Positions 34,829-38,097 of a stretch of 64,000 nucleotides of DNA are shown here, piece by piece. The DNA is from Phycisphaerae bacterium (GTDB taxonomy: Bacteria > Planctomycetota > Phycisphaerae > Tepidisphaerales > Tepidisphaeraceae), in contig JAICIO010000017.1 in the NCBI GenBank assembly GCA_025924315.1, forward strand, positions 1 to 64,000, in the 5' to 3' direction. Each line of letters begins with the position of its first letter. Positions within the stretch are counted from its first letter, which is position 1. A program made the position numbers and the translations under genes. The notes beneath the pieces are model-generated. The model did no database searches and was not told the origin of the DNA. It saw only the letters and a list, made by a program, of their open reading frames with translations.

Positions 34829-35233
34829 TTATCCAAACCGGATCTTCCGCTCCGCGCCATCGCCGTCATACCACCGGCCGGGCTTGAGGCTGATCTTGCG
34901 GAGGCCGGCGGATTTGCAGGCGAGAGTCAGTTGCTTTTCGAGGCCCGAAAGGAGCAGTTGCTTCAGCTCGTAGAGATGTGATGAGCTGTCGACGATGACT
35001 TTCAACGTCCCGGCGTGAAAGGATTCGAGCGATGAATGTTCACAGAGAATCGCCGGCACGAGTTGCTGCCAGCACTCCGCGATCGCGGACATTTTGCCTT
35101 GGCGTTTCTGGACGGAGTTCTTGAAGAATGAAAGCATCTCCGGCCCCAGGGCAGCGGTTTCCTTTGGCGCGGATTGCTTCACCTTCCAGAGGCGGGTGAG
35201 CGTACGTTCGTCCTCGCGGTCCTTCGCGTTCAT
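34829..35233 (-). CDS. dciA: DciA (DUF721) family helicase-loading factor
   Basis: I start at the ATG at 35233 (134 aa; MNAKDREDERTLTRLW); longer frames add a low-complexity leader. The DUF721 fold is recognisable in CWQQLVPAILCEHSSLESF, LKVIVDSSSHLYEL and the end LRKISLKPGRW. DciA is the ancestral loader of the replicative helicase DnaB and is usually found near the replication origin. Here it lies just past dinD and dnaN, within 2.5 kb of the probable oriC. Confidence 0.75.
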   Translation of the reverse strand: MNAKDREDERTLTRLWKVKQSAPKETAALGPEMLSFFKNSVQKRQGKMSAIAECWQQLVPAILCEHSSLESFHAGTLKVIVDSSSHLYELKQLLLSGLEKQLTLACKSAGLRKISLKPGRWYDGDGAERKIRFG

Positions 35234-35243
35234 GCTGCACCCG

Positions 35244-36134
35244 CTAGAGAAGCTTATCATCGGCAGGCTTTGTTCCGCCGAGGCCGAGCGCATCTTTTCC
35301 GTCAAGTTCAAGTTTGGGCGGTGTATCCTTGACCCGCTTTTCAACGTGCTTGATGTGCTCCGCTGGTTTGATGTTTTCCGGCATCGTGCCACCGATGCGT
35401 TGAATCGCAGCGCGTACCTCTTTGCCGACCTGCTCGTGGGCCCGAATCGCGCCCTGCTGGGTCTTGATCCTCTCTCGAGCCAGTTTCTCCCGCGCTTGAG
35501 TCATCCGAAACTGATTCGCGGCCAGCTCGGTCGTGTCCATTCGATCCATCAGGTTTTCGGATTTCGGAATTCCCTTTCGAGCTTTGATGGATTCGTTGCC
35601 TAATCCGTTATAGAGGCCCTTGTAGCCAGCGTCGTGAAAAACGCCGAACATCACGCTCTGCACGCCAGCTTCCCGCGCAGCACCAGATAACGCCTTGAAC
35701 TCTTCGGACGTTTGCTTGCGCAACTCTATTCGCTCTACGTCGCGAGCTTGAGCGTCCGATATCTCTTGTCGACGCGTCTGAATTGCAAAGTATTTTTGGG
35801 CAAGTGCGATTTCCGGCTTACGCGGATCACCGTTCTGTGCAATAAGATAGCATGCGAATCGGCTCAGATGGAAATCAGCGATCGATCTAGTGCTTCCCGA
35901 TCCCAACGTGACCATTTTGCCGGCGCCGGCAAAATGGTGGTCACATTGGTTGCCCGACCGCTCGCACGAGGTCATTGCGCGACCTAGAGCGTCTTCAAAT
36001 CGGCGCCATTGCGAATAACCGAGCAACGGCTGCAAATCGCGAGCACTCCAATACTCCGCGCCGTGCTCGTTAATCTGCTTGAGCTCTTCAAACGTCTTTC
36101 CCGATTCATGAACTGGAAGGTCTTCCGTAGCCAT
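35244..36134 (-). CDS. dinD: DinD-like DNA-damage-inducible protein
   Basis: The 296-aa protein has the BRO-N/DinD N-terminal fold (GAEYWSARDLQPLLGYSQW) with FACYLIAQNGDPRKPEI, and the DinD C-terminal part (ALSGAAREAGVQSVMFGVF and YNGLGNESIKARKGI). In E. coli DinD is SOS-induced and affects RecA filaments. An in-frame GC palindrome at 35929-35943 (HFAGAGKMV) is native to the family. AGGGAA seven bases before the ATG is the ribosome site. I see no LexA box. It is 22 bases downstream of dnaN, so it is likely cotranscribed with it. Confidence 0.85.
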   Translation of the reverse strand: MATEDLPVHESGKTFEELKQINEHGAEYWSARDLQPLLGYSQWRRFEDALGRAMTSCERSGNQCDHHFAGAGKMVTLGSGSTRSIADFHLSRFACYLIAQNGDPRKPEIALAQKYFAIQTRRQEISDAQARDVERIELRKQTSEEFKALSGAAREAGVQSVMFGVFHDAGYKGLYNGLGNESIKARKGIPKSENLMDRMDTTELAANQFRMTQAREKLARERIKTQQGAIRAHEQVGKEVRAAIQRIGGTMPENIKPAEHIKHVEKRVKDTPPKLELDGKDALGLGGTKPADDKLL

Positions 36135-36156: not shown

Positions 36157-37263
36157 TCACTGCAAGTTCACCGGCATGATCACGTAGAGGAAATTCTGGC
36201 CGCCCTTGAGCAGGCCCGGACGATTCGGGGCCGTCAGTTCGAGACTGATTTCGTCGCTGTCGACCACGCGCAACGCTTCCGTGAGGAACGTTGGATTGAA
36301 GCCGATCTCGACATCGGCGCCGTCGAACTTGCATGCGAAATTGACCTCGGCTTCGCCCGATTCGGGCGAACGGCTTGTTAATTGCAGGCCTTTCTTCGTG
36401 AAGCTCATTCGCACGCCTTTGCTCTCTTCGGTCGTGAGCAAGGCCGCGCGACGAATGGCGCTCAGGAAGTCTGCCGTTGCGGCGGTCATCGTCTTGTCGG
36501 CGTCCTTCGGAATCACGTCTTCGTACGGCGGGAACTGGCCTTCCACCAGGTTACTCGTGAGCGTCGCGCTGCTGGTGTGGAAGATGATCTGATTCTCGCG
36601 CATTTGGAATTGCACCGGCTCTTCGGGATCATCGATCAGCTTGTCCACGAGGTTGAGGGCCTTGGCGGGCACGATCGCTTGCGCGCCGTCCTTGCCAAGC
36701 TTGCCGTTGGCGGCGAGATCGCTCTTGGCCATCGCGAGGCGACGGCCGTCCGTGCTCACCAGGTTCAGCTTCTTATTTTTCGCAACGATCAGCACACCGT
36801 TGAACGCGTAGCGCGTGCTTTCGCGCGCGGCGGCGAAGAGTGTTTGCCCGATCAGCTGCTTGAGCAAGCCGCCGGGCACTTCGAAATCCGGCTCGCCTTC
36901 AAAATCCGGGACCGGCGGGAAATCGCTCACCGCCTGCGTGTAAATCTTGAAATGCGAATCCTGGCCCTTGATGTGAGCTTGATCGTTCACGACTTCGATC
37001 GAGAGCGTGTCGTCGATGCTTTCGCGAACGATGTCGCGAAACTTGTCCGCGGGCAGAAGCACCTCGCCGGGCTGTTCGATCTGCACCTGCGGATCGCTGT
37101 AGCGGATCGCGACCTCGAGATCGGTCGCGGCGATCGTGAGACGATCATCCGCTGCGGTGAGCTTCACGCACTGCAGCACGGGCTTGGGTGTGCGGGCGGC
37201 GACAACATTTCCAGCGACGGTCAGCGCTTCCAGCAGCGCTCCGCGGTTGCAGATTACTTTCAT
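36157..37263 (-). CDS. dnaN: DNA polymerase III beta subunit (sliding clamp)
   Basis: DnaN is the ring-shaped processivity clamp of the replicative polymerase. At 368 aa it has the usual length and the three-domain clamp pattern, starting MKVICNRGALLEALTVAG and ending with MPVNLQ, a usual clamp C terminus (MPxxL/R). A GAGGAAAGG ribosome site lies about 9 bases before the ATG. It is transcribed away from the origin-like region at 37290-37645, with dinD and dciA downstream. Confidence 0.97.
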   Translation of the reverse strand: MKVICNRGALLEALTVAGNVVAARTPKPVLQCVKLTAADDRLTIAATDLEVAIRYSDPQVQIEQPGEVLLPADKFRDIVRESIDDTLSIEVVNDQAHIKGQDSHFKIYTQAVSDFPPVPDFEGEPDFEVPGGLLKQLIGQTLFAAARESTRYAFNGVLIVAKNKKLNLVSTDGRRLAMAKSDLAANGKLGKDGAQAIVPAKALNLVDKLIDDPEEPVQFQMRENQIIFHTSSATLTSNLVEGQFPPYEDVIPKDADKTMTAATADFLSAIRRAALLTTEESKGVRMSFTKKGLQLTSRSPESGEAEVNFACKFDGADVEIGFNPTFLTEALRVVDSDEISLELTAPNRPGLLKGGQNFLYVIMPVNLQ

Positions 37264-37289: not shown

Positions 37290-37645
37290 GTCCACACTTT
37301 CCAAGTGGGGGAGCGATACTCTATCAGATGATCTTCTTACATAAACTTATTTGAAAAGTAGTAGTAGTGATGATGCCTGGCGCATTGTGGATAACTTCTG
37401 GGAGAAAACAGTAAACGTAAGCGATATAAAACGTTACGACGCGTATTACAGGACGTTGTCTGTGGACAAGCTGTTAGCGAACGTGTCGCACCGGACTTGC
37501 GAAAACACGGATCCCACGACACGCGCCGCTTGTCCGATGCGATCGTTGTAGCGAACGAACCGAACCCGCGACAGACGCACGTCAGAGGTCGCCAAGTTCT
37601 CCACCGGCTGTGCGATAGCCTTGCGCCAGCTTTATCCACCGGTTG
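37290..37645. other. Probable chromosome replication origin (oriC)
   Basis: The spacer of 438 bases next to dnaN contains a perfect DnaA box (TGTGGATAA, 37386-37394, minus-strand TTATCCACA), a near-perfect one (TGTGGACAA, 37461-37469), and weaker ones TTCTCCACC (37597-37605) and TTATCCACC (37632-37640). Read on the minus strand, the first box is followed by a GC-rich spacer, then ACTACTACT triplets (37357-37366), then an AT-rich run (37320-37356). This order of box, GC linker, triplets and AT-rich DUE is the DnaA-trio basal unwinding arrangement. No dnaA gene is in the window. Confidence 0.75.
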
Positions 37646-37701
37646 TTCAGCGCGATCCCTTGCGCTGCACGTCTGACGCTGCAGTTGTATCATATCGCTC
37701 G

Positions 37702-38097
37702 ATGTTCGTCTTGCGGATGCTGAGCTATCTCTGGGCTTTGCCGACGACGATGCTCGGCCTGGTCTTCGTCCCGCTGGCGATGCTCACGCGCGGCGGCGTG
37801 CGCGTGGTGTCGGGGGTAGTCGAAGTGTACGGGGGTTGGGTCGAGATCTTTCTTCGCCGTTGCACGTTGCTGCCGAACGGCGCCAGCGCGATGACGCTGG
37901 GCCACGTCGTGCTTGGCCGAGACGAAATGCAGCTCGACCTGACGCGCGCTCATGAGCGCGTGCATGTTCGACAAGTCGAGCGATGGGGACCACTCTTCAT
38001 TCCTGCCTATCTGACCGCATCGCTCGTGTTGTGGATGCGCGGCAAGCGCGCCTATGCGGACAATCCATTCGAGCTTGAAGCGTTTCGCTGCTCATAA
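37702..38097 (+). CDS. Small membrane protein with HERVH motif
   Basis: I start at the ATG at 37702 (131 aa) because TATCAT ends 8 bases earlier. The protein has hydrophobic segments at about 7-30 and 98-115 and the motif AHERVHVRQVERWGPLFIP near residue 95. HExxH is the zinc-binding pattern of metallopeptidases, and E-V-H-V-R-Q with a following helix occurs in a small group of uncharacterised planctomycete proteins. A peptidase role is possible but unproven. It borders the origin region. Confidence 0.55.
   Translation: MFVLRMLSYLWALPTTMLGLVFVPLAMLTRGGVRVVSGVVEVYGGWVEIFLRRCTLLPNGASAMTLGHVVLGRDEMQLDLTRAHERVHVRQVERWGPLFIPAYLTASLVLWMRGKRAYADNPFELEAFRCS

Follow-up and report, generated by a model that had tools for sequence, protein, structure and literature searches.

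The window analyzed here, 64,000 bases of a 73,033-bp contig (C17), comes from a draft MAG of a Phycisphaerae planctomycete that totals 6.57 Mb in 262 contigs. It contains a cluster of replication genes on the minus strand. dnaN (36157–37263), encoding the DNA polymerase III beta clamp, is identified with certainty by its Pfam domains (PF00712, PF02767, and PF02768). dciA, which encodes a probable helicase-loading factor (34829–35392; PF05258), is likewise confirmed; the start of its reading frame is uncertain and overlaps the gene that separates it from dnaN. This intervening gene (35244–36134, minus strand) had been called dinD in an earlier note on the sequence; the protein it encodes carries a Bro-N domain (PF02498, 35 bits). 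It occupies the position between dnaN and dciA in only one checked relative (L048), and is apparently a local insertion. The proximity of dciA to dnaN is itself a feature of 22 family loci, including that of the window. In Planctomycetes, dciA has been reported in a replication operon (PMC5109545), and the window resembles that context in that dciA falls within a replication-gene cluster. It differs in the arrangement: here dciA is located just downstream of dnaN, with the Bro-N gene in between, and dnaA is elsewhere. On the other side of the intergenic region, upstream of the origin candidate, is a divergent reading frame for 158 aa (37621–38097); it yielded no match in a Pfam search and is conserved beside the origin in several family genomes.

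The region upstream of dnaN displays an ordered set of elements, which are read on the minus strand. A perfect DnaA box, TTATCCACA (box B; 37386–37394), is positioned 122 bp upstream of dnaN and is the box closest to the triplets. It is followed by a GC-rich spacer of 12 nt (ATGCGCCAGGCA, 67% GC; 37374–37385), and then by a DnaA-trio zone of six in-register triplets, TCA TCA CTA CTA CTA CTT (37356–37373), whose CTA register is conserved in the family. Beyond the triplets is a predicted unwinding segment of 30 nt, TTCAAATAAGTTTATGTAAGAAGATCATCT, with 23% GC (37326–37355). Box A, TTGTCCACA (37461–37469), precedes box B by exactly 75 bp and is followed by a family-conserved element with the consensus GTCCGATAAT, present in the window in the degenerate form GTCCTGTAAT (37445–37454). 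Box A is preceded at 136 bp by a third box, R (TTCTCCACC; 37597–37605), on the opposite (plus) strand and in its conserved place; an extra plus-strand box, TTATCCACC (37632–37640), falls outside the conserved position. Together, these 4 boxes form an intergenic cluster close to replication genes. The earlier note had correctly located the box, linker, triplets, and AT-rich run, on the minus strand and ahead of dnaN. It had also listed three further boxes; all three are present, and the outermost is off the conserved place. In correction of the note, the box closest to the triplets is single.

This arrangement stands out from its genomic background. The window harbors 13 one-mismatch boxes vs 4.6 expected, a number reached by 0 of 100 shuffles. 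Across the 6.57-Mb genome, TTATCCACA occurs 18 times vs 11 for its reversed control, and the pattern of a box, 6–30 nt, and ACTACTACT has a single match, the origin candidate (reversed control, 0). An anchor-free scan of 298 genomes of the class recovered the strict box-triplet pattern in 5 genomes, each a member of the same family with the pattern immediately upstream of dnaN; it was absent from the other families in this set, and its reversed control had no match in the family. The lone additional match in the phylum (G510) is away from dnaN and looks like chance. Elsewhere in the source genome, two perfect DnaA boxes are spaced 248 bp apart (G000:C2:58295–58551, equivalent to L003 6296–6552), flanked by genes that read as ABC-transporter-like and cold-shock-like. 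We set this pair (C2:58295/58543) aside as a rival origin: triplets were not seen on inspection, and the pair is barely conserved. It is possibly a DnaA-regulated or titration site.

The elements are shared across the family. dnaN was present in 58 of 61 related genomes, and 30 loci were taken for comparison; the named dnaN relatives belong to uncultured Phycisphaerales or Phycisphaerae genomes, one of which carries the label Tepidisphaeraceae. Family loci were compared after strand correction, each anchored on box B, by a score that rewarded CTA in the trio register and left the 75-bp and 211-bp spacings outside. The majority of anchors match the box perfectly or with one mismatch, and box B with at most two mismatches is found in 22 of 23 family loci. 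Box A is exactly 75 bp from box B in 18 of 21 loci. An opposite-strand box is located 210–212 bp upstream of box B, again in 18 of 21 (average per offset, about 0.1 matches). Across 22 loci the spacer positions C, G, and CCA are conserved. CTA counts by phase relative to box B are 50/8/3, a bias that is somewhat inflated because the anchoring score favored CTA in that register. Within the six triplets, T is overrepresented at the middle position (T counts by phase, 36/85/14), and the first run of at least three NTN triplets is in register in 14 of 17 cases. The AT-rich segment averages 30% GC in the family vs 56% immediately beyond it. Conservation is not uniform: relatives L011, L019, and L025 have few perfect CTA triplets, the boxes of the complete relative G013 are degenerate, with one mismatch each, and the box-triplet architecture was not found at dnaN in L028 (G012).

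The closest known counterpart is the basal unwinding system (BUS) of the B. subtilis oriC, described as DnaA boxes 6/7, a GC-rich spacer, and DnaA-trios (PMC6669920, PMC8287927, and PMC10721633). Compared element by element, the planctomycete locus shares a strong box, a GC-rich spacer, 3'-GAT-5' triplets opposite the box strand, AT-rich DNA beyond, and dnaN beside it. It differs in three respects: its triplets are preceded by a single recognizable box and not by a tandem pair, its dnaA is unlinked, and its extra boxes sit at fixed long spacings, 75 bp on the same strand and about 211 bp on the opposite strand. According to Pelliciari et al. 2021 (PMC8287927), BUS modules were predicted in 1755 of 2070 predicted origins; planctomycetes go unmentioned in the main text. 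The planctomycete elements are those of the predicted modules, and the 12-nt spacer of many relatives, in the same register as the window, falls inside the 10–13 bp peak reported there. In the window, strict DnaA-trios (CTA CTA CTA CTT TTC) number five consecutive, above the BUS minimum of three trios (NAN, ideally 3'-GAT-5') on one strand, but the first strict run begins 18 nt from box B, beyond the 16-nt cut-off given for the published search. This gap lowers the case for BUS membership without excluding it: the limit belongs to a search program and is no requirement of the mechanism, the window preserves the 12 + 3n register, and its first two triplets read TCA TCA. The published combination of spacer and run is present in 12 of 22 family loci.

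The earlier note was right that the locus lacks dnaA. The source genome encodes two full-length DnaA proteins, both on contigs other than that of the origin candidate: DnaA1 (452 aa; L004, G000:C142:12789–14147), with the canonical helix-turn-helix GGRDHTTVLHA, and the divergent DnaA2 (526 aa; L005, G000:C33:5513–7093). In DnaA2, the helix-turn-helix is nearly invariant and of a different sequence, GKRNHSTVISACR, and the arginine-finger region is altered. A search of 20 family and class genomes recovered both paralogs in nearly every one, and two DnaA C-terminal domains occur in most of 59 sampled genomes of the phylum. Throughout the family, dnaA is on contigs apart from dnaN, and the two are also unlinked in the complete genome of G013, where 3.3 Mb separate dnaA1 from dnaN. 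A dnaA-unlinked origin is thus a family trait; in two genomes of other families (G027 and G059), dnaA1 adjoins dnaN.

A sign change in GC skew at the locus, expected by the earlier note, is borne out in some relatives and not in the window itself, where the skew is flat with no switch and the chromosome is split over 262 contigs. In G018:C3, skew is negative on the left side of the element and mostly positive on its right; the element is at 186.6 kb, and the detrended minimum (187,150) falls 0.5 kb from it. In G011:C4, mostly negative skew gives way to strongly positive skew, and the detrended minimum (232,238) is about 6 kb from the element (225.9 kb). G009:C11 has a similar pattern near a contig end; in G005 and G021 the switch is weak or absent. 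In the complete 7.19-Mb genome of G013, sampled at 60 positions of 20 kb (approximately 17% of the genome), agreement is approximate: the cumulative curve has minima on both sides of dnaN (3.67 Mb), at 3.48 and 3.84 Mb. The signal at dnaN is weak, of small amplitude, and short of significance when taken alone (t-test p = 0.067, with about 8% of axes equally good), free two-breakpoint fits are not clearly above permutations (reached by 14 of 60 and 10 of 60), and 6-mer skew fails to distinguish the dnaN axis (37% of axes do as well). dnaA1 of this genome (0.389 Mb) is close to the cumulative skew maximum.

Taken together, the grounds for an origin are the anatomy, the family conservation with fixed spacing and register, the uniqueness in the genome, and the sign change in the skew of some relatives. 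The conserved proximity of dnaN and dciA and the presence of a canonical DnaA1 point the same way. We regard it as very likely that the region is the chromosomal oriC of this Phycisphaerae planctomycete and that it is of the BUS type, in line with the oriC and DnaA-trio reading of the earlier note, which gains support from the family-wide architecture, the fixed spacings, and the conserved triplet register. A plausible sequence of events can be modeled on the B. subtilis system, as set out in PMC8287927 and PMC6669920. The DnaA that would bind boxes R, A, and B is most likely DnaA1, the canonical paralog, whose gene is elsewhere; boxes A and R would presumably help its assembly. From box B, a DnaA-ATP filament would then cross the GC-rich spacer and reach the triplet strand, whose trios are 3'-GAT-5' (CTA in the box-strand sequence). 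On the trios, the filament would melt the adjacent AT-rich segment, and DnaB helicase would be loaded there, probably with DciA; the adjoining positions of dciA and dnaN suggest such DciA-assisted loading.

Two other explanations deserve consideration. The region might be merely a DnaA-regulated dnaN promoter, with replication starting elsewhere, for instance beside dnaA. A promoter must exist directly upstream of dnaN, the GTCCGATAAT element is promoter-like, and linkage of dnaA1 to dnaN does occur in the class (G027 and G059). Nevertheless, skew switches at the locus in G018:C3 and G011:C4, dnaA1 of G013 is near the cumulative skew maximum and not the minimum, and inspection of up to 350 bp ahead of the dnaA1 reading frames tested revealed no DnaA box. 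Moreover, promoters do not require a box-phased CTA array and an AT-rich stretch. We judge this explanation very improbable.

It is also very unlikely, in our estimation, that the origin is real but makes no use of DnaA-trios, the triplets being a chance simple repeat beside a genuine DnaA box. Slippage does generate CTA/ACT repeats, three relatives (L011, L019, and L025) have few perfect CTA triplets, and the published spacer and run are found together in little more than half of the loci (12/22). What speaks against chance is that the register to the box is kept across genera despite sequence differences, both in the CTA phases (50/8/3) and in the NTN runs (14/17), and that the family is free of the reversed control pattern. 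The preferred reading, an oriC with DnaA-trios, extends the known unwinding system to this planctomycete group through a family-wide origin, and implies that the origin remains with dnaN-dciA when dnaA relocates. Our literature search, whose coverage stopped short of subscription journals, returned no origin described for the Phycisphaerae class. The element gives a precise locus for metagenome growth-rate estimates and for DnaA tests.

The conserved element that follows box A, GTCCGATAAT, is overrepresented in the genome (26 places vs 1 for the reversed control), and its copies are mostly intergenic, often pointing towards a reading frame. It is a candidate promoter -10-like element or regulator site; its intergenic, gene-facing placement is no less compatible with a promoter element than with a DnaA2 site. 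A more speculative proposal, to which we give little credence, is an origin with two initiators: DnaA1 would act on the TTATCCACA boxes and triplets, and DnaA2 on another origin site such as GTCCGATAAT next to box A (opposite-strand sequence, TTATCGGAC). If true, this would amount to two-initiator control of replication in a planctomycete family.
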